The translations under genes and the position numbers were made by a program. The notes under the pieces were generated by a model. The model worked only from the letters and a program-made list of their open reading frames with translations, was not told the DNA's origin and searched no databases. Shown here one piece after another: positions 8,673 through 27,167 of a DNA stretch of 31,533 nucleotides. The stretch is from a virus. The stretch is taken from the IMG/VR virus record IMGVR_UViG_3300044971_002050, positions 1 through 31,533 of that record; one strand, 5' to 3'. Within the stretch, counting starts at the first letter, position 1, and each line of letters starts with the position of its first letter.

Positions 8673-8685
8673 AGTATCTCCATTA

Positions 8686-9156
8686 TCAAGCCCACTGTGG
8701 ATCTGGTACCACTGGCCAATCTATTTCACCACCAACAGGATTAAAAAATATCTGACGAATCAATGTTCTATAAGCGTCAAAATCTGATTTATTTAGTATG
8801 TTGACATCAGGAAGATAAACATAGTCTGTCATGAACAATTTTACTCTAGCTATTTCTTTATTGTCTTCAGCGGTATTTACATATGGTTGTTTACGTATTT
8901 CGTCTTTTTCTAACCACTCTTCAACCAGAGGTAAATATTCATCAACAGATGTTATTCTGGTATTTGGAGGAGTAACTTCATTTTCGTCTTTTGAATGCTG
9001 TAATTCACCGTAGCCTCTTGGGCCATACCAGTGAACGAAAGTAATATCAGAAGGCATTGTATTACTTAAATCGAATCCGTCAATGCAGTCACCATTTAAA
9101 CAAACCACGCCATCTTCTTTTACAAGAGTTAAATTATAATCGTTTATGTTAATCAT
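8686..9156 (-). CDS. Tail-fibre assembly chaperone-like protein
   Basis: The C-terminal 50 residues (FMTDYVYLPDVNI, then DFDAYRTLIRQIFFNPVGG and WPVVPDPQW) have the layout of the phage tail assembly chaperone family. In that layout an Asp/Leu-rich stretch precedes a helix and a W-P-x-x-P-x-x-x-W end (Pfam Phage_tail_APC type, from memory). The N-terminal half (VHWYGPRGYGELQHS) is typical of small fibre-linked proteins in marine phages. It starts two bases after the stop of the 1620-aa fibre gene, whose 3' end provides the AAGGATT Shine-Dalgarno. That position is standard for a chaperone dedicated to that fibre. The role is inferred from layout and context. Confidence 0.65.
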   Translation of the reverse strand: MININDYNLTLVKEDGVVCLNGDCIDGFDLSNTMPSDITFVHWYGPRGYGELQHSKDENEVTPPNTRITSVDEYLPLVEEWLEKDEIRKQPYVNTAEDNKEIARVKLFMTDYVYLPDVNILNKSDFDAYRTLIRQIFFNPVGGEIDWPVVPDPQWA

Positions 9157-9157
9157 G

Positions 9158-12100: not shown

Positions 12101-14020
12101 TGCTGTGTTTAGGTCAATGTAAGAACCAACAAAAACATTTTGCGTTGTTAGATTAGCATTGATTGTAACATTAGCTGTAATTATACCACCAAGATTCGCA
12201 TTCAGTGAATTGTTTGCTCTTACAAATGCAGCATTAGCATATTGACCAGTTGCATTCTGTGATTGATAAGCAGAATTGGCATGTATGAATGCAGAGTTCG
12301 CTTGAATAAATCCAGAATTGGAATGCTCAAATGCAGAATTAGCATGTATGAATGCAGAATTTGCATAAGAACCGGCTGATACTGCTTTACTATTTGATAT
12401 GTTTGCTGCAATAAATGCTCCATTAGCATATATGGCAGCAGAGTTTGCTACATGCGAGGGTGTATTTGCTCTTACAAATGCTCCATTAGCATATATGGCA
12501 GCAGAGTTTGCTACATGTGATGGTGTGTTGGCTGCAATTGCAGCACCATTGGCAAAATTAAATGCAGAATTAGCACGTATAAATGCTGAGTTTGCATATG
12601 AACCAGCAGACAGTGAATCTTGTTTGGCAATATTAGCAGCAACAAAAGCACTATTGGCATATACACTAGCAGAGTTCGCTACATGTGATGGTGTGTTGGC
12701 TGCAATTGAAACACCATTTGCAAAAATAAATGCAGAATTAGCATGTATGAATGCAGAATTCGCATAAGAACCGGCTGATACTGCTTTACTATCTGATATG
12801 TTTGCAGAATTGAATGCAGAGTTGGCATATACACTAGCAGAATTGGCTACATGTGATGGTGTGTTTGCTGCAATTGAAACACCATTTGCAAAAATAAATG
12901 TTGAGTTCGCATAATCAAATGATGCATTGGCTTGTGTTAATGCAACATTGGATTGTGCAAAAGCTGAATTAGCATGGTCAAAAGCAGAATTTGTTTTTAT
13001 AAATGCAGAATTTGCATGTATAAATGCACTGTTGGCATATTGACCTGTTGCATTCTGAGATTGATATGCACTATTTGCATGAACAAATGCAGCATTAGAA
13101 TATTGACCCGTCGCATTCTGAGATTGATATGCTGCATTCGCATGAATAAAACCAGAATTTGCGTGAATGAATGCACCGTTTGCTACTGTAAATGCAGCAT
13201 TAGCATATTCTCCTGTGGCATTTTGAGACTCATATGAAGAGTTCGCATGGACAAATGCAGAGTTTGCTTGTATTAGTGCTACATTTGATTGTGCAAAAGC
13301 AGAGTTTGCATATGCACCTGCACTAATTGCCTTACTATCGGCAATATTTGCAGCAACAAATGCACCGTTAGCATAAATTGCAGCAGAGTTTGCCACGTTC
13401 GATGGCGTATTAGCTGCAATTGAAACACCATTTGCAAAATTAAACGAAGAGTTTACATGAATAAATGCTGAATTTGCTTGAATAAATCCAGAATTAGCAT
13501 GATGATATGCTGAATACGAAAATACATTTACGGTGTTTGCAAAATTAAATGAAGAATTCGCATGAATTAACGCAGCATTGGCATATTGTCCTGTGGCATT
13601 TTGAGACTCATATGAAGAGTTCGCATGATTAAATGATGCATTGGTTTTTATAAAACTTGAATTGGCATGTATGAATGCACCGTTTGCCACTGTAAATGCA
13701 GAATTTGCATATTGACCAGTTGCATTTTGTGATTGATAAGATGCATTGGCATGATCGTATGCAGCATTGGCTTTTATAAATGATGCAGTAATCCCAGTGA
13801 GTGTGCTGTTTGCAGCCTCGAATGCGGAGTTAGCACGGTCTAATGAATTAATTGAACGAAGATATGTATCATATCCACCAATTGGAATCGTTCCTGTTCC
13901 GTTTGGGCTTCCTATGAATAGGGTGTTACTTGAATAAGAATATGCGGGTTCACCAACATTTAAAGATGCTGGTGTATTTGTTACTAATGATCTTTTTATT
14001 TGAATGGGTGTATTTGCCAT
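9158..14020 (-). CDS. Giant repeat-rich tail fibre with collar-type tip (1620 aa)
   Basis: Predicted long tail fibre or baseplate-attached adhesin. Regions in order are: N-terminal attachment-like domain (1-60, starting MANTPIQIKRSLVTNTPASL); long array of seven-residue F-x-x-A-N repeats (about 61-606) ending in a RANNSLNANLGG cap; globular/beta region (about 610-950, with LYWDYVNDRLGIDTDSPQA as in many fibres); short AN array (980-1055); about 12 YadA-head-like repeats (1119-1310); FFVDPLRNVSS linker; third AN array (1358-1460); and a tip (1461-1620) starting FPSGTAMLFVQTTAPTGWTK, rich in Gly, Ser, Thr and His. The tip resembles T4 short-fibre and collar-domain ends that bind receptor. The ATG at 14020 is 13 bases from GGAGG. 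It follows small structural genes and precedes the chaperone-like gene. Confidence 0.85.
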   Translation of the reverse strand: MANTPIQIKRSLVTNTPASLNVGEPAYSYSSNTLFIGSPNGTGTIPIGGYDTYLRSINSLDRANSAFEAANSTLTGITASFIKANAAYDHANASYQSQNATGQYANSAFTVANGAFIHANSSFIKTNASFNHANSSYESQNATGQYANAALIHANSSFNFANTVNVFSYSAYHHANSGFIQANSAFIHVNSSFNFANGVSIAANTPSNVANSAAIYANGAFVAANIADSKAISAGAYANSAFAQSNVALIQANSAFVHANSSYESQNATGEYANAAFTVANGAFIHANSGFIHANAAYQSQNATGQYSNAAFVHANSAYQSQNATGQYANSAFIHANSAFIKTNSAFDHANSAFAQSNVALTQANASFDYANSTFIFANGVSIAANTPSHVANSASVYANSAFNSANISDSKAVSAGSYANSAFIHANSAFIFANGVSIAANTPSHVANSASVYANSAFVAANIAKQDSLSAGSYANSAFIRANSAFNFANGAAIAANTPSHVANSAAIYANGAFVRANTPSHVANSAAIYANGAFIAANISNSKAVSAGSYANSAFIHANSAFEHSNSGFIQANSAFIHANSAYQSQNATGQYANAAFVRANNSLNANLGGIITANVTINANLTTQNVFVGSYIDLNTAPSIPAINEGRLFYDNYEKSVAFYGDSGETIQIGQSFIRVWNNTGSTVNKGKVVRIGNDVSTNGFPSIILSSADTAQNAEAIGFTIAPIANNSYGYVLATGEIHDINTSLFNSGQELFLSTTPGDYQTTPPAPPNVPIAVGYILTSDVSSGSILVNIHLMEGKNKSNGAILFGRNGAIDQDPTKLYWDYVNDRLGIDTDSPQANLHVAGDGLFTGNLTITGNLVISNAQTITTDQLFVGGNNVILSANVTGEPSLNAAIIVNRGTSPNAYILWDETVNEWLAYEGTGAAGHILLANKTANSWAVYNTFEAYEKEFYPIGANLANSTNEQAKAGFATANIAENLAIASFKHANSGFIQSNSAFIHANSAYQSQNATGEYANSAFTVANGAFIHANAAFTLANGAFIHANSAFNKANGVVQTGFTTISANSVSITPASNTDTLTITAGNNIIINTNSGTKTITIASVTYSNTDVKIYLESLSNIAIGSTANNQGQYATAVGAGAGSDNQGTYAIAIGQEAGFSNQGAYGTALGVGAAYQDQGSQAIAVGYNAGQLLQGQFATAIGYNAGQQVQGVGTVAIGSSAGSVGQRESAIAIGSAAGETTQGNTAVSIGYYAGAGTQGENSVAIGGFAGEMNQGYQAIAIGAVAGQTNQGNSAIAIGVGAGYLNQNDNSIIISANGQLDSTTTGFFVDPLRNVSSDDVLYYNSTTKEITFGVDLSGIHANAAFDYANSTFIFANAGFIVANSGFIQANAAFDHANSGFIQANAAFDHANSGFIQANTSFALTNAAFNHANSGFTQANAAFVHANSGFIQANAAFSVANSAVVFPSGTAMLFVQTTAPTGWTKSTTHDNKALRVVTGTASSGGTTNFTSVFTSRTPAGTVSGTNSGGAVSDSGLTEAQLASHAHTEQLMSSVATMTTTGTRIGGSATGTTNRTATSPTLGTGSGSVHGHGFTNPSWSGSFTGTAMDFAVQYVDVIIATKD
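9641..9949 (-). repeat. Third AN heptad array of the 1620-aa fibre
   Basis: Encodes about 14 copies of F-x-x-A-N-[SA]-[AG]. At the DNA level the period is 21 or 42 bases. The unit TTGGCTTGAATGAATCCTGA (plus strand), continuing through GTGATCAAATGCAGCA, appears twice in exact tandem around 9772-9855. The array joins the YadA-like block to the receptor tip, so it is probably a helical stalk. Confidence 0.8.
10091..10666 (-). repeat. YadA-head-like repeat block in the fibre
   Basis: About 12 repeats of 14-16 residues with the pattern [AI]-[IV]-[AS]-[IV]-G-x-x-A-G-x-x-x-Q-G, for example AIAIGQEAGFSNQG and AIAVGYNAGQLLQG. This is the left-handed parallel beta-roll pattern of trimeric autotransporter heads (YadA/Hep_Hag family), a trimeric fold. 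Its presence supports a trimeric fibre. Confidence 0.8.
10856..11083 (-). repeat. Second AN heptad array of the 1620-aa fibre
   Basis: About 10 heptads of the F-x-x-A-N type, including SYQSQNATG-like interruption units identical in style to those of the first array. It lies between the globular middle and the YadA-like block. Confidence 0.7.
12203..13840 (-). repeat. First, long AN heptad array of the 1620-aa fibre
   Basis: About 545 residues of F-x-x-A-N-[SA]-[AG] heptads. They are interrupted in regular fashion by two recurring cassettes: YQSQNATGQYANSAF, and a cassette with GVSIAANTPSHVANSA followed by an AGSYANSAFIHANSAF end. Each cassette recurs several times, so this is a higher-order repeat, not a simple tandem. 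The heptad phase (F at a, A at d, N at e) suggests a helical bundle or coiled-coil stalk; this fold is inferred. Confidence 0.8.
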
Positions 14021-14023
14021 ATT

Positions 14024-14278
14024 TTAGAATTGGCCTCCGTCAACCTTCTCAATAACAGCAATAGGAATTTCAAATTCGTAACGATTATTTGCTGAGTTGA
14101 AAGCTAAGAATCTTCCATCTTCAACGCCAACGGTTGACACATCATTTATTTCTGATAATGAGATATTCGGTTTTGGTTTAAAGTCTGGAGAAGTGAGCGT
14201 AGTACGATTTGGTTGTTGAACCGTAATCGTACCGAGAGTATTATTTCTAAGAGAAACCGAACCTAAATCTAATGACAT
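14024..14278 (-). CDS. Small structural protein of unknown role
   Basis: The 84 residues start MSLDLGSVSLRNNTLGTITV. The segment EINDVSTVGVEDGRFLAFNS (residues 43-62), with NNRYEFE after it, is a motif often seen in phage fibre and head-decoration proteins (D-V-x-x-x-G-x-x-D-G-x-x-L). It ends three bases before the 1620-aa fibre gene and begins three bases after the preceding 111-aa gene, so it belongs to the same late operon. It may be a fibre-attachment or virion-decoration protein; the specific role is unknown. Confidence 0.6.
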   Translation of the reverse strand: MSLDLGSVSLRNNTLGTITVQQPNRTTLTSPDFKPKPNISLSEINDVSTVGVEDGRFLAFNSANNRYEFEIPIAVIEKVDGGQF

Positions 14279-14281
14279 AAT

Positions 14282-14617
14282 TTACCTCGTTACCGAAGGC
14301 AATACAATCGCAATTCCCTCAATCACTCTAGTCTTAGAATTATCTACTGAATTTGTGATTACCAAGTCATATACATATCTTCCTGGTGTCAATACAGCAG
14401 TGTTTGCGGCAGTCATTGACAATGTTATTTGTCCATTGGAATTGCCCGTAACAATCGCACTAAGAGTATTAGCGGATGAAGAATAATAAGATTTGCGTAA
14501 TTGGGATGATGCGGTATAAGTTGAAAGATTAACCGCATCTCCTTGTGCGTCATTGACTGTGACTATGGATGTTAGATTTGCACCCTGTTCAATCGTTAGT
14601 TCTAGATAAGCAGCCAA
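14282..14617 (-). CDS. Small Ig-like/baseplate-associated protein, conserved in aquatic T4-like phages
   Basis: The 111 residues begin MAAYLELTIEQGANLTSIVT. The sequence is beta-rich with ITLSMTAANTAVLTPGRYVY (residues 69-88) and a C-terminal RVIEGIAIVLPSVTR. I recognise this as a recurrent uncharacterised protein in marine phages, similar in layout to N-terminal baseplate domains of the BppU type. The start is TTG at 14617, chosen because AAGGGG lies 7 bases upstream and no in-frame ATG lies between it and the hairpin. That Shine-Dalgarno forms one arm of a 14-bp hairpin (14619-14663), so translation may be switchable. Confidence 0.65.
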   Translation of the reverse strand: MAAYLELTIEQGANLTSIVTVNDAQGDAVNLSTYTASSQLRKSYYSSSANTLSAIVTGNSNGQITLSMTAANTAVLTPGRYVYDLVITNSVDNSKTRVIEGIAIVLPSVTR

Positions 14618-14618
14618 G

Positions 14619-14663
14619 TTAATTCCCCTTTTTAATGTACTATTTAGTCAAAAGGGGAATTAA
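14619..14663 (-). promoter_or_regulatory. Late-promoter hairpin sequestering a Shine-Dalgarno
   Basis: Two 14-base arms (TTAATTCCCCTTTT at 14619-14632 and its exact complement AAAAGGGGAATTAA at 14650-14663, plus strand) flank a 17-base loop. On the minus strand the 3' arm contains AAAAGGGG, the Shine-Dalgarno of the TTG-started gene at 14617. The loop contains CTAAATA (14641-14647), a late-promoter-like motif. A late transcript would start near the end of the loop and lack the 5' arm, leaving the site open. A read-through transcript would contain both arms and hide it. There is no T-run after the 3' arm, so a simple minus-strand terminator is less likely. Confidence 0.6.
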
Positions 14664-14668
14664 ACTGG

Positions 14669-14776
14669 TTAACTTCCTAAAGGTAATTGTCCAGAAGGCG
14701 CGGCTGATATAGACGCTAAAATTGGATTAACAGTGACTACTGTTCGTGTAAAAAGCGTCATTAGTATTCCACTCAT
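14669..14776 (-). CDS. Putative 35-aa small protein
   Basis: A short frame from ATG at 14776 to TAA at 14669. It reads MSGILMTLFTRTVVTVNPIL for the first 20 residues and ends SGQLPLGS. It starts immediately after the stop of the 88-aa gene, with AAAGGA about 7 bases upstream of the ATG, a good Shine-Dalgarno. The N-terminal half is hydrophobic and could be a short membrane segment. There is no known homology. The good ribosome site and tight packing support expression; length and unknown conservation argue for caution. Confidence 0.45.
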   Translation of the reverse strand: MSGILMTLFTRTVVTVNPILASISAAPSGQLPLGS

Positions 14777-15043
14777 TTATATTCCTTTAGCAAAAACTAC
14801 GGTTTCGTCATCTACAAAAACAGCATTCATTAGACATCTTGGGGGGAATTCAATCAGGGTACATTTCTTTGCAACACCAGAACGATATGTATTGAAAATG
14901 TTACTATGTATTGTTAGAAACTCTTCACTATTGTTAAACAGTATTAGGGCATCACCTTCAGAGAATTCCCCATGTTCTATGATTATGTGAACACAATTCA
15001 CAACATTAACTAGTTTGTTGGCATGTTCTTTCTTTAGAATCAT
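14777..15043 (-). CDS. Hypothetical small protein (88 aa)
   Basis: The start MILKKEHANKLVNVVNCVHI is followed by segments rich in acidic and hydrophobic residues (IIEHGEFSEGDALILFNNSE) and the end DDETVVFAKGI. No domain is recognised. The ATG overlaps the stop of the glycosyltransferase-methyltransferase gene by one base (TAATG), so translation is probably coupled. It could be a partner or regulator of that enzyme, but nothing in the sequence shows this. Confidence 0.6.
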   Translation of the reverse strand: MILKKEHANKLVNVVNCVHIIIEHGEFSEGDALILFNNSEEFLTIHSNIFNTYRSGVAKKCTLIEFPPRCLMNAVFVDDETVVFAKGI

Positions 15044-16389
15044 TATTTAACAGCTTCCAATCTGAAATTTTTACCTGGATGCTTTCCTATTGGTTGCAAT
15101 ATTTTAATGTCTTTAAATCCAATTACTTTACACAAATCAGTAAGTGATTGTGGTGTGTAACCCCAAAGATGTGGATATAACGCACCTTTTTCCCGTGTCT
15201 CAGCAGATTCTTCTTCTGCCGCAGCACCAAAAATACATGTCATCAAAGTTCTTTTTTCAACCTCATCTTTTGATTGAATATAATCTCTACACATTTCATC
15301 AAAATTCGGAGTTTCTAAAACAAGTTTACCGGAAGGTTTTAATGTTTTGTGCCATTTTTGCAGAATCTCTGGCGCACGATGTTGTGGCAAATGTTCAATT
15401 AAATGACTTGCAAGAATTTCGTCTGTAACATTTTCTGGTAAATCCATTTTTAAAACATCTACTTTAATGTCGGCATCTTTATTGTTTTTATCAACACTCA
15501 GATATCCTGGAATCTTGTCACCGCCAGAACCCATATTGAAACGGATTGGTTCTTTTTTATCCAATTTACTTTGAATGAAAGATTTGTAACTTGTGCCATC
15601 CGGCAATCTATCAATCCAACGACGGTCAATAAACTCTTTATCATCCAATGTTAGTGGACGAGTTGGTTTAATATTTGTATAATATTTTGTTAAATCAACG
15701 GAAGGATGTGCTGTATACATGCCTGTTGCTAAGTCCATATGTAGACATTGAACATCTGTATTTACAAGAAGCTTTGTTCCTCTCTTGTGTAGACGATGCA
15801 CAAAGAAGTTATCTTCACCGATAAATGGAATTTCGTCGTTGATGTTATTACCAATACAACAGAAAGGAAGTTCTGGTTCTTCTTCTTTCATTTGCTTGAG
15901 CAAATCAATCGGAACTAACATAACATCCATACCAGTTTGCCACGCTTCAATGACTTGACCGGGATCAACATTAGGAATAGTAATCCAATCTTCTTCACGA
16001 ACCATAATCATAGCATCGGAGCATTTAATATAATAAACTCCTGTAACAACTGCTCCAGGATTCTCTTCAGCAGTTTTCATAAGCTTTTTAAAGCCATCAT
16101 AAGGAAGTACAGTATCTTCGCCAACAAACAAAAGATACTTAGCACCGCTCTCTAATGCTTGTTCAATAAGATAGTTTCGTGCAACGTCAACTTTTTCACC
16201 GCCAATGTTGCAGAAACCGTGAGAGAATCCCATCAAATCAATATGAAGACCCTCATAACCGTCAAAATTTTGTGCAGGTGTTTCTTTTAAGTCTCTTCGC
16301 GGCTGTGCAATTACAACATACGGTTTGATTGTTTTAGATTCACTATAAATCTCTTTCATTGTGTTAATGATTTTGTCTCGATTATACAT
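15043..16389 (-). CDS. Fused glycosyltransferase (GT-A-like) and SAM-dependent methyltransferase
   Basis: Two-domain enzyme of 448 residues. The N-terminal half (about 22-235) looks like a GT-A glycosyltransferase: PYVVIAQP first strand, VDVARNYLIEQALESGAKYL, the acidic metal-site-like stretch LLFVGEDTVLP (E91/D92), and later GEDNFFVHRLHKRGTKLLVN with H217/D219. The C-terminal half (about 282-446) is a class I methyltransferase: glycine motif FNMGSGGDKIPGYLSVDK (G287-G290, D300), SHLIEHLP (328-335) and KPSGKLVLETPNF. It lies inside the fibre island, just downstream of the propeller proteins, with a GTGAGGA ribosome site. Virion or fibre glycosylation is a possible job, but host envelope modification is equally open. 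The metal-site assignment is tentative. Confidence 0.78.
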   Translation of the reverse strand: MYNRDKIINTMKEIYSESKTIKPYVVIAQPRRDLKETPAQNFDGYEGLHIDLMGFSHGFCNIGGEKVDVARNYLIEQALESGAKYLLFVGEDTVLPYDGFKKLMKTAEENPGAVVTGVYYIKCSDAMIMVREEDWITIPNVDPGQVIEAWQTGMDVMLVPIDLLKQMKEEEPELPFCCIGNNINDEIPFIGEDNFFVHRLHKRGTKLLVNTDVQCLHMDLATGMYTAHPSVDLTKYYTNIKPTRPLTLDDKEFIDRRWIDRLPDGTSYKSFIQSKLDKKEPIRFNMGSGGDKIPGYLSVDKNNKDADIKVDVLKMDLPENVTDEILASHLIEHLPQHRAPEILQKWHKTLKPSGKLVLETPNFDEMCRDYIQSKDEVEKRTLMTCIFGAAAEEESAETREKGALYPHLWGYTPQSLTDLCKVIGFKDIKILQPIGKHPGKNFRLEAVK

Positions 16390-16409
16390 AATTTCCTCAC
16401 GTTAAAAAA

Positions 16410-17831
16410 TTAATATTTGTTAAAAAATGGCGATAAAACTCGACCTGGCGATATATTTATGCCCGTTGAAATCTTCTGTCCTATGTTTCCAGAAAAAGGA
16501 GCAAAATGAATATCACCATTCTGTGCAAGAACGCCTCCATAATGTAGCTGAGTTCCAGTAGTAATTAGAGAATAAGTTGTTACAACGCCATCAGCAGACA
16601 CTTTTTGTCCTACGATTGCACTAAAACGAATAAAATGAATATCACCATTAGGTGCAAGAACACCGCCAGAATAAGCCGCACCAGTAGTATAAACTAAAGA
16701 ATATGTTGATACGACACCAGCAGAGGATATTTTTTGCCCTCTGTTGGCACGATAAGGAACAAAATGAATATCACCATTCTGTGCAAGAACGCCTCCAAAA
16801 AATGCAGCATTTGCCGTTGTATAAACTAATGAATAAGTTGAAACAACACCAGCAGAGGATATTTTTTGACCTCTCTCAGCAAATGAAGGAACAAAATGTA
16901 TGTCACCATTGGGTGCAAGAACGCCACCTGCATAAGCAACGGTTCTAGTGTATACTAATGAATATGTTGATACAACGCCAGCAGCAGATATTTTTTGACC
17001 TCTCTCAGCATTAAAAGGCACAAAATGAACATCACCATTTGGTGCAAGAACACCACCCAGATAACCAGATGTGAGTGAATAAACTAAAGAATACGTTGAT
17101 ACAACACCCGATGCGGATATTTTTTGCCCTCTATTTGCATCATGAGGAATAAAATGGATGTCGCCATTTGGTGCAAGAACACCACCCCAGTATGCACCTT
17201 GACCATCAACACCAGCAGTAGTATAAACTAACGAATAAGTCGATACAACACCAGATGCAGATACTTTTTGACCCCTATTTGCGAAACCTGGAACAAAGTG
17301 AATATCACCATTAGGTGCAAGAACACCACCACGATAAGCTTGAGAAGTTGTATAAATTAACGAATAAGTTGATACTATACCGCCAACGCCACCATTATCA
17401 AATGGCGTACCTCTTATAACACCCTGTCTCAATTCCCTCTCTAGACCACGCCATGAAATTAAATTATTCGTGGTTGATGCATCATCTGAAGTAGGTATGG
17501 TTCCCGGAACAAGTTCTGCAGGAAAAGTTATTGTAACATTTTTAACGCCAGCTGGAAAATTAATTTTTCTACCATTATCTTGAGAATCCGAAATTTCATC
17601 TCTGGTTATGGTAAACTGCACGTTTGAATAAATGTCTGGTGAACTTACTTGAATGGTACCTATTCCAACTTCCCAACGCGATCCACTAGTAACGAAATAA
17701 TGAACTTTGTTATTAGCATCAGAAGCATTTAAAGTTCTATACTTGGATGTAGAGGTAGGAAACAATAATAAATCATTGTTACCTGTTGTAGCGGTTCCCA
17801 TTTGAACCAAATCTCTGACAATAAATGACAT
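16410..17831 (-). CDS. Propeller adhesin A: virion domain plus one seven-blade array (473 aa)
   Basis: The smallest of three related adhesins. Residues 1-110 form a single N-terminal virion domain common in phage structural proteins: TTGNNDLLLFPTSTSKY, then VTSGSRWEVGIGTI, then ITRDEI and INFPAGVKNVTITFPAEL. A linker ISWRGLERELRQGVIRGTPF (125-144) follows, then exactly seven repeats (about 152-457) of the STYSLxYT..GGVLAPNGDIHFVP..GQKIS type, and the end VLSPFFNKY. In this copy the virion domain is uninterrupted, unlike in the two paralogues upstream. A beta-propeller that binds a surface ligand is inferred. It lies 3 bases downstream of the 770-aa gene. Upstream of the ATG I see no strong ribosome site, so coupling is likely. 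Confidence 0.75.
   Translation of the reverse strand: MSFIVRDLVQMGTATTGNNDLLLFPTSTSKYRTLNASDANNKVHYFVTSGSRWEVGIGTIQVSSPDIYSNVQFTITRDEISDSQDNGRKINFPAGVKNVTITFPAELVPGTIPTSDDASTTNNLISWRGLERELRQGVIRGTPFDNGGVGGIVSTYSLIYTTSQAYRGGVLAPNGDIHFVPGFANRGQKVSASGVVSTYSLVYTTAGVDGQGAYWGGVLAPNGDIHFIPHDANRGQKISASGVVSTYSLVYSLTSGYLGGVLAPNGDVHFVPFNAERGQKISAAGVVSTYSLVYTRTVAYAGGVLAPNGDIHFVPSFAERGQKISSAGVVSTYSLVYTTANAAFFGGVLAQNGDIHFVPYRANRGQKISSAGVVSTYSLVYTTGAAYSGGVLAPNGDIHFIRFSAIVGQKVSADGVVTTYSLITTGTQLHYGGVLAQNGDIHFAPFSGNIGQKISTGINISPGRVLSPFFNKY
16454..16461 (-). promoter_or_regulatory. Possible late promoter of the glycosyltransferase gene (CATAAATA)
   Basis: CATAAATA on the minus strand, the same octamer as before the tail tube gene, lies about 65 bases upstream of the glycosyltransferase ATG, inside the 3' end of the 473-aa gene. 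Chance occurrence in AT-rich coding DNA is quite possible. Confidence 0.3.
16461..17378 (-). repeat. Seven-blade array of the 473-aa adhesin
   Basis: Seven units of 41-48 residues, each with STYSL-type start, GGVLAPNGDIHF core and GQKIS end. Unit 2 has a five-residue insertion. Unit 7 diverges (TYSLITTGTQLHYGG). Confidence 0.9.
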
Positions 17832-17834
17832 ATG

Positions 17835-20147
17835 TTATAACTTATTTAAGAATGAACCGAGTGCTATTTCACTATCTAGGGGTTTAGATAATGTGTATAT
17901 TTTTTGTGATACGCCGTTTTGTCCTACTGGAATAAAATGAATATTACCATCAAAATCTAAAACACCAAAAGAATATGGTCCTTGATTTGCGCCCATAGAA
18001 ATTGGTGTAACTGGATATGTAGATGCAACGCCATTTAAAGATATTTTTTGACCAATTCCCACACCCAAATCATCACGAGCTGCCCAAAATGGAACAAAAT
18101 GAATTTCACCATTTGGTGCAAGAACACCTCCAGCGTATGCATTGTTACGAGTGTATGCTAATGAATATGTCGAAACCACACCATCAATAGAGACTTTTTG
18201 TCCAACTCTTGCATCATAAGGAACAAAATGTATGTCTCCATTGGGTGCAATGACTCCACCAGCGTAGGCTTCAGTAGTAGTATATGCTAATGAATATGTA
18301 GACACAACACCTGATGCTGATATTTTTTGTCCAACAGGAGTAAGAAAAGGAACAAAGTGTACTTCACCATTTGGTGCAAGAACACCACCTTCATAATAAG
18401 CAAGGGTTCCAGTATTTACCAATGAGTATGTCGAAACTACACCAGTGGTAGATACTTTTTGGCCTATTCTTGAAGCCCAAGGCACGAAATGTATATCTCC
18501 ATTTGGTGCAACAACACCACCAACAAACGCCTCACCTCTTTGATACACTAATGAATATGTTGACACAACACCAGAAGCAGATATCTTTTGTCCAACAGTT
18601 GCATCGTTAGGTACGAAATGTATATCGCCATTAGGCGCAAGAACACCGCCCCAATAACCTCCATAAGCTATAACAGAATAAGTAGAACTAATACCAGTTG
18701 GAGATAATTTTTGTCCAATATTTACATTATATGGTACAAAGTGGATGTCACCATTAACTGCAAGAACACCGCCACTGTATGCGTTTTCAAAAGTATATGT
18801 CAATGAATATGTTGATGGAATAGGATTCTTGAATGTCGTTCCAGCTGTAATGCTTTTCATCAAACTTCTTTGAAGTCCTTTCCACGCATTTAAACTCGAA
18901 TCAATTGAAGAATCATCTGCCGTAGCAGCGGAACCTTGCACTAGTGTTGATGGCTGTGGAATATAAACACTTTTCGTGCCAGCAGAGAAATTTACTTTAT
19001 TATCATTGTTACTTGATGCAAGTACAAAGTCTCTTTCCATTCGAGGTGTTGTTATTTTTTGTCCAACTGTTGCATCAAATGGAACGAATTGTATGTTATT
19101 ATTTGCATCCAAAACACCACCAAAATAAGAAGTCGATGTGGTGTAAGCTAGTGAATATGTTGAAACAATGCCAGTGGTCGTTGAAATTTTTTGTCCAACG
19201 GGTGAACGATATGGAACAAAATGTATATCTCCATTGGGAGCAAGAACTCCGCCAGCGTGATATGCCAAAGTGTTGGTGTATATTAACGAATAAGTTGACA
19301 CAACACCAGTTTTAGATATTTTCTGTCCAACCGAAGCATTTTCCGGAATGAAATAAACATCGCCATTGGATGCAAGAACACCACTTTGATATGCATCAGA
19401 AGTAGTATATACTAATGAATATGTTGATACGACACCCGAAGTTGTTGAAATTTTTTGACCAATTTCAGATTCATTGGGAACAAAATGTATATCTCCATTT
19501 AAATCTAAAACACCACCGGCGTATGCATCCGATCTGGTATATACCAATGAATATGTTGACACGACACCAGCCGAGGATATTTTTTGTCCAACGGGTGCAT
19601 CTCTTGGTATAAAATGAATATCTCCATTTAAATCTAAAACACCACCATGATAAGCAAATGCTGTAGTGTATATCAACGAATATGTTGATACTACGCCTAA
19701 CGAAGACACTTTTTGTCCAACCGGACTGCCGCTAGGAACAAAGTGAATATCTCCATTTGTTGCAAGAACACCACCAATATGTGCTCCATTATCAGTATTT
19801 TGTGTGTATATCAATGAGTATGTTGAAACTACACCAGAAGCAGATATCTTTTGTCCAACTTCGGCAAATGAAGGAACAAAATGTATGTCACCATTTTGTG
19901 CGAGTACACCACCGTAATATGCATTATTACTTGTATATAATAGAGAATATGTTGACGGAATCTGCGTTTTTACTGTACCAACACCTATCTCAAAATTTGA
20001 TGCATCAGTAATTGCATAATAAGTTTGATTATTATTTCCAACATCTGAAAAATCAGTATATCCCGAAACAGTAGGTCCAAATAATATGGTACCAGTTCCA
20101 GTCGTATTCGATGTTACGTTCGCTCTATCTAAAGCAACAAAAGCCAT
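17835..20147 (-). CDS. Propeller adhesin B: virion domain split by one array, followed by a second array (770 aa)
   Basis: N-terminal residues 1-60 (TTGTGTILFGPTVSGYTDF, ITDASNFEIGVGTV) are the first half of the same virion domain as in the 473-aa paralogue. A seven-unit array (63-366) interrupts it. The second half resumes at RDFVLASSNNDNKVNFSAGT and SVYIPQPSTLV (372-403), followed by the linker NAWKGLQRSLMKSITAGTTF. A second seven-unit array (443-753) then runs to a conserved end EIALGSFLNKL. Some units replace GGVLAPNGD with GGVLDLNGD or GGVLATNGD. Blade 6 of array 2 carries a seven-residue insertion (WAARDDLGVGIGQK). It is probably a virion adhesin with two propellers and lies in the same operon as its neighbours. 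Confidence 0.75.
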   Translation of the reverse strand: MAFVALDRANVTSNTTGTGTILFGPTVSGYTDFSDVGNNNQTYYAITDASNFEIGVGTVKTQIPSTYSLLYTSNNAYYGGVLAQNGDIHFVPSFAEVGQKISASGVVSTYSLIYTQNTDNGAHIGGVLATNGDIHFVPSGSPVGQKVSSLGVVSTYSLIYTTAFAYHGGVLDLNGDIHFIPRDAPVGQKISSAGVVSTYSLVYTRSDAYAGGVLDLNGDIHFVPNESEIGQKISTTSGVVSTYSLVYTTSDAYQSGVLASNGDVYFIPENASVGQKISKTGVVSTYSLIYTNTLAYHAGGVLAPNGDIHFVPYRSPVGQKISTTTGIVSTYSLAYTTSTSYFGGVLDANNNIQFVPFDATVGQKITTPRMERDFVLASSNNDNKVNFSAGTKSVYIPQPSTLVQGSAATADDSSIDSSLNAWKGLQRSLMKSITAGTTFKNPIPSTYSLTYTFENAYSGGVLAVNGDIHFVPYNVNIGQKLSPTGISSTYSVIAYGGYWGGVLAPNGDIHFVPNDATVGQKISASGVVSTYSLVYQRGEAFVGGVVAPNGDIHFVPWASRIGQKVSTTGVVSTYSLVNTGTLAYYEGGVLAPNGEVHFVPFLTPVGQKISASGVVSTYSLAYTTTEAYAGGVIAPNGDIHFVPYDARVGQKVSIDGVVSTYSLAYTRNNAYAGGVLAPNGEIHFVPFWAARDDLGVGIGQKISLNGVASTYPVTPISMGANQGPYSFGVLDFDGNIHFIPVGQNGVSQKIYTLSKPLDSEIALGSFLNKL
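17889..18821 (-). repeat. Second seven-blade array of the 770-aa adhesin
   Basis: Exactly seven units. The first begins IPSTYSLTYTFENAYSGGV and the last (VASTYPVTPISMGANQGPYS) is degenerate. The core APNGDIHFVP is conserved in most units. Confidence 0.88.
19050..19961 (-). repeat. First seven-blade array of the 770-aa adhesin (inserted in the virion domain)
   Basis: Exactly seven units from IPSTYSLLYTSNNAYYGGV to DANNNIQFVPFDATVGQKI. It is flanked by the two halves of the domain that is continuous in the 473-aa protein. Confidence 0.88.
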
Positions 20148-20156: not shown

Positions 20157-22628
20157 TTAAAGTTTGTTTAAAAATGGACTGAGACATGCATTCATAGGTA
20201 ATGGTGTACTAGGAAGTGTTGAAATCATTTGACCAACAGCATTTGTAGGTACAAAATGTATGTCACCATTAGGTCTGAGAATACCACCAAAATGAGAACC
20301 AGTGGCATTTGTATGTATCAATGGATATGTTGACACTACACCAGCAGCAGATATTTTTTGTCCTCGATTTCCCCACCAAGGAACAAAATGAATATCACCA
20401 TTTGGCGCAAGAACACCACCAGCATGAGCAAGAGTTGCAGTATACACTAACGAATATGTTGAAACGGTACCATTAATAGATATTTTTTGTCCTACAACAG
20501 CATTGGCAGGAATAAAATGTATATCACCATTTGGTGCAACAACACCACTCCAATAAGAACCACCGGAATTCGTATATATCAATGAATATGTTGACACTAC
20601 GCCAGCAGCAGATATTTTTTGTCCTCTGTTACCCTGTAACGGTACAAAATGTATATCGCCATTAGGCGCAAGAACACCACCACCATAAACGGCAGGACCG
20701 GTATAAACTAATGAATATGTTGACACAACGCCAGCAGCAGAGACTTTTTGTCCTCTTTCGGCACTATAAGGAATAAAGTGTACGTCTCCATTTGGTGCAA
20801 GAACACCACCACCATAAGAAGTGAGCGTTGTATATAGTAATGAATATGTGGATACAACACCGTTTATATTAATTTTTTGTCCTACTCTAGCACTATGAGG
20901 AATAAAATGTATATCACCATTTGGTGCAAGAACACCACCCAGATAAGCGTCGGAAGTATAAACTAATGAATATGTTGATACGACACCAGATGAAGAGATT
21001 TTTTGTCCTCTATTAGCCAGATAAGGAACAAAGTGAATGTCTCCGTTTGGTGCAAGAACACCACCACGATAAGAATTAGTAAGCGTATAACCCAAAGAAT
21101 ATGTCGATACAATTCCACCAACTCCACGATTATTAAATACATTACCGCCCAGAACGCCTTGTTCTAACAAACCACGAAATGCTCTCCAACCAGATAAATC
21201 CGGTCCAATTTCATTGTTATCCCCCGATGGAACACCACCAACGGCAACAGCATTTGGATAAACAACGTAAGGACCTTCGTATATGCTCGGAGTAAAATCA
21301 AAATCAACGGGATTATTATTATTTGATGAAGAATATACTGTGTCTCTAGTTATTGTATTGTAAGATAATTTTTGTATTTGATTGGCATTACGTGGAACAA
21401 AGTAAATATTTTTTGAAAACACCTCAATTACACCACCCTCATATGCTCCGGTAGTTGTGTAAGGTAAAGCATATGTTGTTACCATGCCACTGAAGGTTGA
21501 ATCAAAAGTTGATTGTTGAAATATTTTCTGACCGACTCTTGCATTATGTGGAACAAAATGAATACTGGGACCACTGTCTTCAGAACCATCAGGCAAAATT
21601 TGTGGACGACCTAGGTCGTCTAAAACACCACCAGAATATGCACCCGTTGTTGTATATGCAAGTGAATATGTCGTTACAATATTTTCAACTACTCCGTCTT
21701 GATTATAAGTACCCCTATTCGCATTGTATGGAACATAATGAGCATTACCTAAATAATCTAAAACAGCGCCTCGATAAGCACCAGCAGCGGTATAGGGTAA
21801 TGTATATGTTGTAATTACTGGAGGCGCTGATGTTGTTGTTTCGGGATCAGTATTAGCCTCTACTTTCATTCCTCGGTTTGCATTATAATTAACAAAGTTT
21901 GCAGCAAATGGACCTTGAAATCCACCCCAATATGCACCAGCTGTTGTATAGGGTAATGAATAAGTTGAAACTAAACCATAATCTGTTCCTTGGCCAACTC
22001 GTTGTCCCCTATTAGCATTGTGTGGAACAAAATGAATATGATCTTGTTGAAATGGATCCAGAACGCCGCCGGCATACGCTCCAGCCGTTGTATATACTAA
22101 TGAATAGGTTGATACAGTACCATTGAAATCTACTTTTTGTCCAACTCTTGCATTGTGGGGAACAAAATAAACATGACCATCATCACCAAGAACACCACCA
22201 ACATAAGCACCAGCAGTGGTGTAAATTAATGAATAGGTTGACACTACACCAGCGTCGGATATCTTTTGTCCAACAGTCGCATTGTATGGAACAAAATGAA
22301 TGTAACCATCATTTCCAAGAACACCATCCGAATACGCATCACTGATTGTATATGAAGCCCTTTGAGTGTAAACTCTAAAATCAGAAATATACAGTCTACC
22401 TTTTCCAACTTCCCAATCAGTTCCCGTACTCATAGAATAATATATACTATTTCCGGATGCAACATTGCTAAGACCAAAGCCTGTTCCTGCACCATCAATT
22501 CTCCAGTACGCTTGACCAGAGCTTAGTCCTGTTGGAAGACCAACAGGACCTGTTAATTGAAAATAAGTATTTTGAGTGGCGTATTGGTCAGTAATACCAT
22601 AAACTCTATTTCTAAAAATAACTGCCAT
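20157..22628 (-). CDS. Propeller adhesin C: virion domain split by a degenerate array, followed by a second array (823 aa)
   Basis: I chose the ATG at 22628 (MAVIFRNRVYG) over an upstream in-frame ATG at 22655. It overlaps the preceding stop as TAATG, has GGGGAA upstream, and matches the start of its paralogues. N-terminal residues carry the half-domain ending TGTDWEVGKGRLYI. A seven-unit array (about 85-422 in this numbering) interrupts it. The domain resumes at ITRDTVYSSSNNNNPVDFDF and VVYPNAV, then the SGWRAFRGLLEQGVLGGNVF linker. A second seven-unit array (506-804) ends in NACLSPFLNKL. Array 1 is unusually divergent: units 3-7 have long insertions and lose the APNGD core (for example GGFQGPFAANFVNYNANRG). 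It may have diversified to bind another ligand. Confidence 0.75.
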   Translation of the reverse strand: MAVIFRNRVYGITDQYATQNTYFQLTGPVGLPTGLSSGQAYWRIDGAGTGFGLSNVASGNSIYYSMSTGTDWEVGKGRLYISDFRVYTQRASYTISDAYSDGVLGNDGYIHFVPYNATVGQKISDAGVVSTYSLIYTTAGAYVGGVLGDDGHVYFVPHNARVGQKVDFNGTVSTYSLVYTTAGAYAGGVLDPFQQDHIHFVPHNANRGQRVGQGTDYGLVSTYSLPYTTAGAYWGGFQGPFAANFVNYNANRGMKVEANTDPETTTSAPPVITTYTLPYTAAGAYRGAVLDYLGNAHYVPYNANRGTYNQDGVVENIVTTYSLAYTTTGAYSGGVLDDLGRPQILPDGSEDSGPSIHFVPHNARVGQKIFQQSTFDSTFSGMVTTYALPYTTTGAYEGGVIEVFSKNIYFVPRNANQIQKLSYNTITRDTVYSSSNNNNPVDFDFTPSIYEGPYVVYPNAVAVGGVPSGDNNEIGPDLSGWRAFRGLLEQGVLGGNVFNNRGVGGIVSTYSLGYTLTNSYRGGVLAPNGDIHFVPYLANRGQKISSSGVVSTYSLVYTSDAYLGGVLAPNGDIHFIPHSARVGQKININGVVSTYSLLYTTLTSYGGGVLAPNGDVHFIPYSAERGQKVSAAGVVSTYSLVYTGPAVYGGGVLAPNGDIHFVPLQGNRGQKISAAGVVSTYSLIYTNSGGSYWSGVVAPNGDIHFIPANAVVGQKISINGTVSTYSLVYTATLAHAGGVLAPNGDIHFVPWWGNRGQKISAAGVVSTYPLIHTNATGSHFGGILRPNGDIHFVPTNAVGQMISTLPSTPLPMNACLSPFLNKL
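20217..21113 (-). repeat. Second seven-blade array of the 823-aa adhesin
   Basis: Exactly seven regular units, starting IVSTYSLGYTLTNSYRGGV and ending HFGGILRPNGDIHFVPTNAV. Cores are nearly identical; differences cluster before GG and between HFVP and GQK. Confidence 0.9.
21363..22376 (-). repeat. First seven-blade array of the 823-aa adhesin (divergent)
   Basis: Seven units counted from the recurring YT..GAY..G cores. Lengths range from about 43 to 65 residues because of insertions in units 3, 4, 5 and 6. It is the least conserved array, but the count is still seven. Confidence 0.8.
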
Positions 22629-23953
22629 TATATAGCATTCCCCATAATCACACAACTATTAGAAGTTGTAAACAAAATTGTTGCAATGCCTCTTGGTGAA
22701 AGAGATACACTAGAAACATCAGTATCAAATGCTGCAATGTAAGCTACAGCTATATCACATGTTATTGTTTTGCTAGTGCTTGTATTATTATAAAGTGTTA
22801 CAACATCATTTTCTGAAAATGTGTTGTTTGGTATCGTGATTGTACCAGCAACTTTAATATATTTTCCAACATCAGAAACTTGTAAAGTATAAAATGTTTT
22901 ATCTCCAGCCGATGGTATGTTTCTAAAACCAACAGTGAAATTTTCACCCGGAATCGTAACAGTAACGTTACTTGTAAGTGTGTCTGGTACAAGTGTTGCA
23001 GAATATGAACTAGTTCCACCATTTCTGCCTTTTAGAATAATAGCATCTTGTAAAATATCATTTTCTACTTTTATACCGACAGATGATCTAACGATAACAT
23101 TACCAGTAACAATACCACCATTGTTTGCATCTAAGGAGTTATTGGCACGAATAAATGCAGCATTTGCACTATTGAATGCTGCATTGGCTTGAATGAATCC
23201 AGAATTAGCATGATCAAATGCAGCGTTTGCTTGTATGAATCCTGAATTCGCATGATTGAATGCAGCATTAGTACGTGCAAAAGAAGTGTTAGCTTGAATA
23301 AATCCTGAATTAGCGTGGTCAAATGCTGCATTGGTTTGAATAAATCCACTGTTTGCTGTAATAAAAGCAGCATTTGTTTGAGTGTAAGCTGTGTTGGTTT
23401 GCGTGAATCCAAAATTAGCATGTACAAACGCTGAGTTGGCTTGAATGAAACCAGAATTAGCATGGTCAAACGCAGCATTAGTTTGAATAAAACCAGAATT
23501 GGCATGTATAAATGCTGCATTTACAGAATCATATGCAGAATTGGTTTTTATAAAACCAGAGTTTGCATGAATAAATCCAGCATTTGCGTGATCATATGCG
23601 GGTTGCACCTTTTGTATTAGCGGTAGAAGATTTGCACCCTTCTGATAAATCTCGTTTGCGTAAATACTAACTGTCGATAAATTTCTTCCAACAGTTAAAT
23701 CTAGTTGAATATTTACATTACTCTCACTAAATCTGGTATTACCAATGTTTGCAGTATTTGCTTGCAGAGTATTAATATTCGCAAGTGTACGAACGTTTAA
23801 TGATGCACCTTCACCTTGAATGAAGATTGAAGAGTTGGCAATAAGACCGCCACTAGCATTACTTGTAAGACTGTTGGCAACTTCAATTAATGAAGAAGTT
23901 GCTTGCAACCAGTCTGTAAATGTATTCGAAGTTGATAGTTGATTTATTGCCAT
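22628..23953 (-). CDS. AN-repeat fibre without propeller arrays (441 aa)
   Basis: N-terminal domain (1-120, MAINQLSTSNTFTDWLQATS, RTLANINTLQANT, LDLTVGRNLS) is shared with the 1064-aa protein. A helical AN-heptad array follows (118-272) and ends in the IRANNSLDANNGG cap. The C-terminal beta domain contains TLTSNVTVTIPGENFTVGFR, then IKVAGTITIPNNTFSENDVV and the end SLSPRGIATILFTTSNSCVI. The protein aligns along its whole length with the 1064-aa neighbour once two propeller arrays are removed from the latter. It therefore represents the uninterrupted backbone. Probably a trimeric tail fibre or baseplate adhesin; function is inferred from repeats and context. Confidence 0.75.
   Translation of the reverse strand: MAINQLSTSNTFTDWLQATSSLIEVANSLTSNASGGLIANSSIFIQGEGASLNVRTLANINTLQANTANIGNTRFSESNVNIQLDLTVGRNLSTVSIYANEIYQKGANLLPLIQKVQPAYDHANAGFIHANSGFIKTNSAYDSVNAAFIHANSGFIQTNAAFDHANSGFIQANSAFVHANFGFTQTNTAYTQTNAAFITANSGFIQTNAAFDHANSGFIQANTSFARTNAAFNHANSGFIQANAAFDHANSGFIQANAAFNSANAAFIRANNSLDANNGGIVTGNVIVRSSVGIKVENDILQDAIILKGRNGGTSSYSATLVPDTLTSNVTVTIPGENFTVGFRNIPSAGDKTFYTLQVSDVGKYIKVAGTITIPNNTFSENDVVTLYNNTSTSKTITCDIAVAYIAAFDTDVSSVSLSPRGIATILFTTSNSCVIMGNAI
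23131..23603 (-). repeat. AN heptad array of the 441-aa fibre
   Basis: About 21 heptads of F-x-x-[AT]-N-[SA]-[AG] with a 21-base DNA period. Stretches such as GFIQANAAFDHANSGFIQA are nearly identical to the third AN array of the 1620-aa fibre. Confidence 0.8.
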
Positions 23954-23972
23954 TTTTGTTTTCTAAAAATAA

Positions 23973-26900
23973 TTACTCTAATTCTATTATTGTTCCAGAT
24001 AAAACACAACTGTCAATGTCTGTAAACATGATTGTTACGATACCTCTTGGACCAATTTTAACACGAGATACATCTGTATTTATTCCCGCAATATATGACG
24101 TTGTTATAGCTCCACAATTAATATTAACGTTTCCTCTACCGTTATTTACAATCGTGATCACATCACCATCAGTAAATGTTGCTGCTGGAATGTTTATTGT
24201 TGCAAATGTTGAAGATTTAACTTGTTTACCTAAATCATCTCTACCAAGCGTGTGTTCGGTTGATAATGTTATTTTTTGACCACGAAAACCATCGTCTGGA
24301 GCAAGATGAACTTCACCATTTGGTGCAAGAACACCACCACTATAATCAAGAGGTGTGGCAACTGCATAAGTGGATATTATTCCAGAAGATGATATTTTTA
24401 ATATTCTATTAGCATCACCAGGAAGAAAATGAATGTCACCATTCGGTGCAAGAACACCACCATTATAAGCACTTTGTTCCAGCACGTTAAATAAAATTGA
24501 ATAAGTGGATACTACACCAGAAGCAGAAACTTTTTGTCCTCTATTTGCGTTATATGGAGCAAAATGTATGTCACCATTTGAATCAAGAACACCACCATAA
24601 TATGCGCTCGAAGTAGTATATGCTAGTGAATATGTTGACACAACACCCGATGCGGATATTTTTTGCCCTCTATTTGCATCTTGAGGAATAAAATGGATGT
24701 CGCCATTTGGTGCAAGAACACCACCCCAGTATGCAAAACTCGTTGTGTATACCAACGAATAAGTGGATACTACACCAGCCGATGATATTTTTTGTCCTCT
24801 GTTTGCGCTACGGGGAACAAAATGAATATCACCATTAGGTGCAAGAACGCCACCAGCATATGCACGACTCGTTGTGTATACCAACGAATAAGTGGATACT
24901 ACACCAGCCGATGATACTTTTTGTCCTCTATTGGCAAGAAAAGGAACAAAATGTATATCACCATTCTGTGCAAGAACACCACCAGAATATGACCCACCAG
25001 TTGTATATACTAACGAATATGTTGATACCACACCGGCTGTAGATACTTTTTGTCCAACTGGCGCATTAAACGCAACAAAATGAACATCACCATTTGGATC
25101 AAGAACACCACCAGAATAAACTGCTGGAGTTGTACTAGTGTATACTAGTGCATATGTTGAAACTATATCAGAGTAAACGAATGCATTTGCTTTTGGTATA
25201 TTTCTGAAACCTACTGTAAAGGATTCATTTGGAATAGTTACAGTCACATTTGCAGTCAATGTGTTTGGTGTTAGATTTGCGGTATTTGCTCCTGTTCCAC
25301 CAATAGGATTTTTGATTATGATAGAATCTTGTCCAGCAGCAACTTCAGTTTTTATACCTTCAGTCGATCTTATTGTAAGATTAGCGAAATCATATGAATA
25401 TGTCTTTGATAAGTCTAATTTTAATCCAAAACTACTGGAATATGGAACTGGAATTAGTTCTTTATTTGTATTTAAAACTCCGCCAAAAAATCCACTGGCA
25501 GCGATAGATGGTAATGCATACGTTAAAACAATACCGTCAGATGTTATTTTTTGTCCTCTGTTAGCATTAAAAGGCACAAAATGTATATCTCCATTTGGTG
25601 CAAGAACACCATCAACATAAGCATTAGTTACCGTATACAGCAATGAATAAGTAGATACCACACCAGCAGATGATACTTTTTGTCCTACTCTAGCACTAAG
25701 AGGAATAAAATGAATATCACCATTGGGTGCAAGAACACCACCTGCATAAGCGCCTAAAACAGTGGTATATACCAAAGAATAAGTTGTGACAACGCCGCTA
25801 GATGATATTTTTTGTCCTACTATTGCTCTATTAGGAACAAAGTGAATGTCACCATTTTGTGCAAGAACACCACCTTGATAAGCGGAAGAAGTTGTATATA
25901 CTAATGAATAAGTTGAAACTACACCAGCGGAAGAGATTTTTTGTCCAACTCTTGCAAAATTAGGAACAAAGTAAATTTCTTCATTAGTTGCTAGAACACC
26001 ACCTGCATAAGCACTTGTGGTAGTATATGCTAATGAGTAAGTCGATACAACACCAGCAGAAGATATTTTTTGTCCAACTCTTGAACTATTGGGAACAAAG
26101 TGAATGTCTCCATTAGTTGCTAGAACACCACCATTATGAATACCAGAAGCCGCAGATGTTGTATAAGCTAACGAATATGTTGATACTACACCAGCAGCAG
26201 ATATCTTTTGTCCTATATCAGCTTGAAGAGGTACAAAATGCACATCACCATTAGGTGCAAGAACACCACCGCCATAAGACTGGCCAAAAAATCGAGTATA
26301 GACCAATGAATAAGTTGAAAATGCAGGTGTAGCAGTTACCAATCCGCCATTGTTTGCATCTAATGAATTATTAGCACGAATGAATGCTGAATTCGATTGT
26401 GTTAACACAACATTTGCGTATGCAAATTGAGAATTGGCAGCAGCAAATGATAAATTGGCTTGAGGAAACGTTACATTTGCTTGAACAAATGCAGCATTAC
26501 TCAAAGCAAATGCAGCATTCGATTGTATAAACTGTGAATTTGTATAATCAAATGCCGTATTAACTTTAATAAAACTAGAATTGGCATGATTAAATGAAGA
26601 ATTTACATGATTATATGCAGCATTGGATTGTATAAATTGGCTATTTGCGTGATTATAAACTGCATTAGATTGTATGAATGCAGAATTGGAACGAACAAAT
26701 GCGGAGTTAGATTTTACAAATTCTGCGTTTGCATGATTAAAGGATGAATTTGTATGATTATATGCAGAATTTGATTGAACGAAAGTAGAGTTTGCATGTA
26801 TAAATTGTGCATTTGCCTGATCATATACACTTATTGCTTCATCTAAATTGTTAAAAACAAAAATCGTATCAGCGTAAAGAGTATTGGCTGTTAGTTTTCT

Positions 26901-27167
26901 TCCAACGGTTAAATCTAATTCAACCGATGCATTGCTTTTTCCAAAATAAGAATTAGCAATATTGCCCGTGTTTGCCCTCAGTGTATTAATGTTCGCATGT
27001 GTTCGAACATTAATTGAAGATTGATTACCTTCAATTGAGATTGAAGAGTTTGCTAAAAATCCACCGTAAGTATTGTTGGTAAGATTATTAGCAACAGCAA
27101 TTAATCCGGAAGTTGTTGACAACCACTCTTCAAAAGTGTTTGCGGATGTAAGTTGGTCTATTTTCAC
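23973..27167 (-). CDS. AN-repeat fibre with two inserted seven-blade arrays (1064 aa)
   Basis: The start is GTG at 27167, one base after the stop of the 73-aa gene. Order: N-terminal domain shared with the 441-aa protein (1-116, MKIDQLTSANTFEEWLSTTS, RTHANINTLRANT, LDLTVGRKLT); AN-heptad array (117-270) with the IRANNSLDANNGG cap; propeller array 1 (282-586); backbone segment with TLTANVTVTIPNESFTVGFR (636-655); propeller array 2 (667-969); and C-terminal LGRDDLGKQVKSSTFATINI to GPRGIVTIMFTDIDSCVLSG. Both arrays have exactly seven units. The two insertion sites correspond to points that are continuous in the 441-aa paralogue. Probably an adhesin with a helical stalk and two ligand-binding propellers. 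Confidence 0.78.
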   Translation of the reverse strand: MKIDQLTSANTFEEWLSTTSGLIAVANNLTNNTYGGFLANSSISIEGNQSSINVRTHANINTLRANTGNIANSYFGKSNASVELDLTVGRKLTANTLYADTIFVFNNLDEAISVYDQANAQFIHANSTFVQSNSAYNHTNSSFNHANAEFVKSNSAFVRSNSAFIQSNAVYNHANSQFIQSNAAYNHVNSSFNHANSSFIKVNTAFDYTNSQFIQSNAAFALSNAAFVQANVTFPQANLSFAAANSQFAYANVVLTQSNSAFIRANNSLDANNGGLVTATPAFSTYSLVYTRFFGQSYGGGVLAPNGDVHFVPLQADIGQKISAAGVVSTYSLAYTTSAASGIHNGGVLATNGDIHFVPNSSRVGQKISSAGVVSTYSLAYTTTSAYAGGVLATNEEIYFVPNFARVGQKISSAGVVSTYSLVYTTSSAYQGGVLAQNGDIHFVPNRAIVGQKISSSGVVTTYSLVYTTVLGAYAGGVLAPNGDIHFIPLSARVGQKVSSAGVVSTYSLLYTVTNAYVDGVLAPNGDIHFVPFNANRGQKITSDGIVLTYALPSIAASGFFGGVLNTNKELIPVPYSSSFGLKLDLSKTYSYDFANLTIRSTEGIKTEVAAGQDSIIIKNPIGGTGANTANLTPNTLTANVTVTIPNESFTVGFRNIPKANAFVYSDIVSTYALVYTSTTPAVYSGGVLDPNGDVHFVAFNAPVGQKVSTAGVVSTYSLVYTTGGSYSGGVLAQNGDIHFVPFLANRGQKVSSAGVVSTYSLVYTTSRAYAGGVLAPNGDIHFVPRSANRGQKISSAGVVSTYSLVYTTSFAYWGGVLAPNGDIHFIPQDANRGQKISASGVVSTYSLAYTTSSAYYGGVLDSNGDIHFAPYNANRGQKVSASGVVSTYSILFNVLEQSAYNGGVLAPNGDIHFLPGDANRILKISSSGIISTYAVATPLDYSGGVLAPNGEVHLAPDDGFRGQKITLSTEHTLGRDDLGKQVKSSTFATINIPAATFTDGDVITIVNNGRGNVNINCGAITTSYIAGINTDVSRVKIGPRGIVTIMFTDIDSCVLSGTIIELE
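24261..25169 (-). repeat. Second seven-blade array of the 1064-aa fibre
   Basis: Exactly seven units from IVSTYALVYTSTTPAVYSGG to GEVHLAPDDGFRGQKI. It includes two neighbouring units with 50 identical bases (start points 129 bases apart), and one unit nearly identical in DNA to a unit of the 473-aa gene. Confidence 0.9.
25410..26324 (-). repeat. First seven-blade array of the 1064-aa fibre
   Basis: Exactly seven units, from FSTYSLVYTRFFGQSYGGGV to a degenerate last unit (TYALPSIAASGFFGGVLNTN). It is flanked by backbone segments continuous in the 441-aa paralogue. Confidence 0.9.
26355..26819 (-). repeat. AN heptad array of the 1064-aa fibre
   Basis: About 22 heptads, with more Ser and Gln variants (FVQSNSAYNHTNSSFNHAN) than in the other arrays. 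It ends in the cap IRANNSLDANNGG, which is shared with the 441-aa protein and nearly so with the 1620-aa fibre. Confidence 0.75.

Follow-up and report, generated by a model that had tools for sequence, protein, structure and literature searches.

Two adjacent genes in the 31,533-nucleotide stretch of viral DNA analyzed here (the window) encode proteins built on one fibre backbone, p441 and p1064, and p1064 differs by two additional arrays of seven blade repeats. The insertion of whole propellers into this backbone is the best-supported reading of the pair. Overall, we consider it likely that the two are paralogous tail fibres, one of which has gained two propellers that it displays for receptor binding. 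The source is an uncultured T4-like lake virus: the window carries T4-type portal, tube, sheath, terminase, neck, and head-closure genes, and its terminase is nearest to those of marine Synechococcus myoviruses (55%). Phage fibres are known to be modular, and clear cases in which a large domain was spliced in with the fibre left intact are useful and not common.

The sequence-only reading of the window had claimed that the two proteins match in the N-terminal domain, the stalk, the cap, the middle segment, and the C-terminal end. An unmasked BLASTP comparison bore this out, recovering three homologous blocks (E 3e-88, 5e-19, and 2e-18, from N- to C-terminus; Table 1) that are collinear in p441 and p1064. 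The masked alignment it had suggested was also run: with the arrays cut out of p1064 (amino acids 279-595 and ~661-973), the remainder aligned with p441 end to end at 51% identity. The flanks are thus homologous and in the same order, rather than unrelated or rearranged. As also claimed, the extra content of p1064 consists of seven-blade arrays at the two named sites, with repeats of ~43 amino acids starting at residues 284, 329, 375, 418, 461, 505, and 548 (n = 7) and at residues 670, 715, 758, 801, 844, 887, and 932 (n = 7). Site 1 follows GGIVT/GGLVT (p441 283/284), in the linker joining the cap and the middle segment. At site 2, array 2 stands in place of the SAGDKTFY loop of p441, correctly identified earlier, at the N-terminal edge of the C-terminal domain. 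In the p441 model, both sites are junctions between segments and not loops within a confidently modelled domain. The earlier proposal of whole propellers inserted into one backbone is therefore upheld by the homologous, ordered flanks, the seven repeats per array, the 28 strands modelled for array 2, and a 452-amino-acid orthologue in a related virus (contig L018) that has no arrays.

Table 1. Positions in the window of the fibre pair, its parts, and the neighbouring array-bearing genes
Feature	Position	Strand	Remark
p441, propeller-less fibre paralogue	22628..23953	-	441 aa
Parts of p441			aa: N-domain 1-112; heptad stalk ~110-268; cap to 283; middle segment 284-347; C-terminal beta domain ~356-441
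SAGDKTFY, empty site 2 of p441	22889..22912	-	p441 aa 348-355
p1064, p441 backbone plus two seven-blade propellers	23973..27167	-	GTG start
p1064 N-domain, stalk, cap (aa 1-278)	26334..27167	-	54% identity to p441 1-283
p1064 insert 1 (aa ~279-595): array 1 (repeats from aa 284) and linkers	25383..26333	-	repeats, cut-out alignment; PF24684 match in p1064
p1064 middle segment (aa 594-660), flanked by both propellers	25188..25388	-	60% identity to p441 285-349 over p1064 596-660
p1064 insert 2 (aa ~661-972): array 2 (repeats from aa 670)	24252..25187	-	Pfam, repeats, model m5f28019e9cf3, Vgb lyase match
p1064 C-terminal domain (aa ~973-1064)	23976..24251	-	homologous to p441 C-domain; p1064 970-1061 about 44-45% identical to p441 ~356-441
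p832, two seven-blade arrays, one within WEVG hairpin of N-terminal domain	20157..22655	-	
p770, two seven-blade arrays, first in same WEVG hairpin as p832	17835..20147	-	
p473, ordinary one-propeller form, hairpin without propeller	16410..17831	-	

The arrays of p1064 match the Pfam family Vgb_lyase (PF24684; E 1.9e-28, 99.6 bits against a cut-off of 50). We folded residues 590-1064 with an alignment of array sequences alone, so that the middle segment and C-terminal domain are poorly modelled there; pLDDT within the array was ~70-95. The resulting array 2 has 28 strands, or seven times four, and its first strand (residues ~668-673) completes the blade formed by the last three. Its best structural matches (Foldseek, VIA-align) were virginiamycin B lyases, at a TM score of 0.9 of the target, Z 34.2, and an rmsd of 2.1 Å over 294 residues; these lyases were also the only matches when the PDB was searched by sequence. 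As modelled, array 2 is a closed Vgb-type seven-bladed beta-propeller, and array 1, at 66% identity to array 2, is predicted to be another. Weak Pfam matches to bCoV_NSP1 and DUF1161 fall on the blade repeats and were dismissed as spurious.

The backbone itself was modelled from p441. The prediction contains a long helix (residues 110-268) and a C-terminal beta domain (~350-441, with pLDDT of 94-97 over most of it); confidence is low elsewhere, the middle segment and N-domain being poorly modelled. The stalk sequence repeats strictly every seven residues as [AG]-F-x-x-[AT]-N-[AS], and its self-identity peaks at lags 7 and 14. This heptad points to a coiled coil whose core holds Phe and Asn. 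In the PDB, the p441 model resembled only phage spike, tailspike, and baseplate proteins, and these weakly. A PHROG "toxin" label for p441 (E 3e-4) was rejected, as the match covers the repetitive stalk. The structure predictions are of monomers; by analogy with phage fibres in general, we infer that the p441/p1064 fibre is trimeric.

These observations suggest the following scenario. p441 and p1064 would be paralogous tail-fibre proteins of a T4-like, cyanophage-related myovirus, in which the p1064 lineage, after the divergence of related viruses, gained two complete Vgb-type propellers, one at the junction of cap and middle segment and the other where the middle segment meets the C-terminal domain. 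The two ends of a closed propeller would lie side by side, so that a propeller could occupy a junction and leave the backbone unbroken. Since the backbone is probably trimeric through its heptad stalk, p1064 would show two tiers of three propellers, the hypervariable face of each presented to glycans or proteins of the host surface. Most likely, then, the p1064 fibre is a trimer that carries receptor-binding propellers in two tiers, its oligomeric state, place in the virion, and receptor binding being inferred.

Three downstream genes, p832, p770, and p473, which the sequence-only reading did not mention, also bear arrays of this kind. p832 probably starts at the ATG that shares bases with the stop codon of p441 (TAATG). 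Both p832 and p770 have their first array in a small N-terminal domain, within a hairpin between WEVGIGT and LSRD that is unbroken in p473 and most relatives. In a related virus (L183, 8988-16580), the p770 counterpart has 14 blades at this hairpin and the next gene has 21, corresponding to two and three whole propellers. The hairpin thus holds none (p473), one (p770, p832), two, or three propellers, always in multiples of seven blades, and with few exceptions complete contiguous arrays consist of 7, 14, or 21 blades. In another locus (L161, 6963-8993), the same hairpin holds a lectin-like Laminin_G_3 domain (E 6.6e-20). Two further loci (L042, 4341-6509; L185, 5435-7684) carry a different propeller-like repeat (KPDGLKMYVVG) at a second loop of this small domain, and an ordinary seven-blade array follows.

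The blades vary mostly on one face. Across 1338 blades, the strands are nearly fixed (0.53 bits of entropy), whereas the D-A and B-C loops average 2.5 bits. Similarly, in seven pairs of related arrays, with loop classes defined from the strand layout, dN/dS was 1.04 and 0.71 in the D-A and B-C loops and 0.07 in the strands and A-B turn; the C-D turn, on the opposite face, was also moderately variable (0.58). Going by the strand order of Vgb, the D-A and B-C loops would lie on the face where that enzyme binds its substrate. Such one-face variability is compatible with relaxed or with diversifying selection and would be expected of a binding surface. The blades do not resemble a DGR-diversified target in their codon usage, as the variable codons are not A-rich in the manner of adenine mutagenesis: at blade position 14, the most variable, there was no excess of A at the first (2/25) or second (4/25) codon base.

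The addition of whole propellers in tandem at one hairpin could also lengthen a fibre, and the propellers might accordingly be structural spacers or virion decoration instead of receptor-binding parts. We regard this as unlikely, though it is the alternative that fares best: one face evolves at a dN/dS near 1 while the strands are held at a small fraction of that value, and a lectin-like domain occupies the very same hairpin in L161.

A second possibility is that the arrays are enzymes, either virginiamycin B lyase-like or glycan-cleaving. The Vgb_lyase family score and the structural match both point in this direction, and virginiamycin B lyase (PF24684; PDB 2z2n, 2qc5) shares with the arrays a seven-bladed fold and clear sequence similarity. 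The catalytic residues of Vgb, which we take to be H228, E268, and H270 (the title of 2z2p gives H270A as inactive), are however not conserved in the arrays. With H228 placed by the printed alignment and E268 and H270 by repeat register, no window array that has residues at top-loop positions 9-11 of blades 6 and 7 carries His or Glu there, and across 167 arrays these two residues are almost absent from the same positions. Since other residues occupy these positions, and hypervariable loops are ill suited to a conserved active site, we consider an enzymatic role improbable; some other chemistry may be associated with the arrays. In contrast to the lyases, the phage arrays have far more regular repeats and reside in fibre genes. 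In the open-access literature, we found no published Vgb-like propellers in phage fibres.

The alignment of the pair would in principle fit loss, with an ancestral propeller-bearing form from which p441 and its relatives shed both propellers. A related virus, represented by L018/L019 and again by L183, has at this place a pair of neighbouring genes, both without propellers, whose products are 452 and 455 amino acids long. A tree of 42 N-domains joined p1064 with the 452-amino-acid protein (support 99/93) and p441 with the 455-amino-acid protein (99/94), and a 5-residue gap is common to the first two. p1064 and its 452-amino-acid orthologue are the sole with/without orthologue pair on this backbone, observed in two contigs belonging to a single virus type. 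Among 44 distinct N-domain proteins, blades occur solely in p1064, which is likewise the only one of ~175 blade-bearing ORFs with the heptad stalk. In the collected loci, the middle segment and C-terminal domain lie within about 10 residues of each other in other proteins that have both, compared with ~308 in p1064. Loss would require several independent exact excisions, and the basal relatives of the backbone that we found have no propellers; we therefore judge it very improbable. The empty orthologue, the tree, the bladeless N-domain proteins, and the short junctions elsewhere make insertion in the p1064 lineage much the likelier direction. As the two arrays are not each other's closest relatives in a shallow tree, two insertion events would be the simplest count. 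The middle segment of p1064 is 59% identical to that of p441 and 39% to that of its orthologue, and recombination between the paralogues is thus likely, making the history other than a simple tree.

Repeats are a known source of misassembly, but a chimera of neighbouring repeat genes is scarcely credible: the frame of p1064 is intact across 1064 codons, an independent contig from a different metagenome record covers the whole region and is 99.99% identical to the window over 18.9 kb, and the p1064 arrays, at only ~65% identity to the rest of the window arrays, are not copies of them. Nor are the two p1064 arrays recent duplicates, whether of one another or of a neighbour: identities among all window arrays are 50-70%, and the two from p1064 do not cluster together.

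Several known proteins resemble p1064 in part. According to the excerpts of the structural report used here (PMC4901313), Gp45, the receptor-binding protein (RBP) of Staphylococcus phage phi11, has a trimeric coiled-coil stem, followed by a platform to which each chain gives one propeller and by a beta tower; its propellers make little mutual contact and are thought to hold the glycan site. This order of coiled-coil stem, propeller, and beta domain in one chain recurs in p1064, taking the stalk helix and beta C-domain as modelled in p441. Whereas Gp45 has one propeller of five blades, p1064 has two of seven astride a small segment, the sequences are unrelated, and the same excerpts describe no with/without paralogue. 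By analogy, the phi11 RBP is the closest working parallel in outline; p1064 is not a member of its family. PhiKZ gp131C (4GBF), as those excerpts cite it, is a seven-bladed propeller at the edge of a myovirus baseplate for which receptor binding was proposed, not shown; on that description, its propeller is a C-terminal domain, unlike the two inserted copies in p1064. Finally, the consulted part of the phage SU10 report (PMC9509320) describes a nozzle protein with a velcro-closed seven-bladed propeller, which the chain enters from the surrounding platform domain and leaves again at the same blade. Propellers connected in this manner therefore do occur in phage tail proteins, although the nozzle is part of the tail channel and not a fibre, and that part of the report mentions no paralogues that have gained or lost one.

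The pair belongs to a broader pattern, which points to a large, uncharacterized, and highly variable propeller family in aquatic phages. One scan found at least 75 loci of the family, and most relatives are single-propeller genes in tandem clusters. At the sensitivity used, a scan of GTDB genomes confirmed none, and the only phage records with similar arrays, at 25-36% identity, were those of Cylindrospermopsis and, with weaker matches, Streptococcus phages. We propose, tentatively and at slightly less than an even chance, that in aquatic T4-like phages whole seven-bladed propellers are a standard receptor-binding cassette that moves between fibre genes, docks at set junctions or hairpins either alone or as two or three stacked together, shares one docking site with unrelated lectin-like domains, and diversifies on one face of each blade. 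Annotation pipelines may label this family as antibiotic lyases. One genome that holds the backbone both with and without propellers, together with an empty orthologue and a second docking hairpin occupied by zero to three propellers or a lectin-like domain, allows the gain of domains by host-recognition proteins to be tested directly, and offers a before-and-after view of phages adding what are probably receptor-gripping parts to their fibres.

Some additional features of the region were observed. A 1620-amino-acid protein (p1620; 9158-14020), possibly a long fibre, is built mainly from the AN heptads that also make up the p441 stalk. Between it and the propeller genes lies a single ORF (15043-16389) with a glycosyltransferase-like N-terminal half and a methyltransferase C-terminal half. 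The C-terminal domain of the pair (YTLxxxDVGKYV...FNNT...TAYIAG; loci L197-L276) is very common in aquatic phages, with at least 585 matching stretches in IMG/VR. A 17.3-kb contig (L035) matches the window at 1530-18826 with 99.8% identity; most of its 38 mismatches fall in the conserved neck/terminase half, and only 6 lie in 8458-18826.
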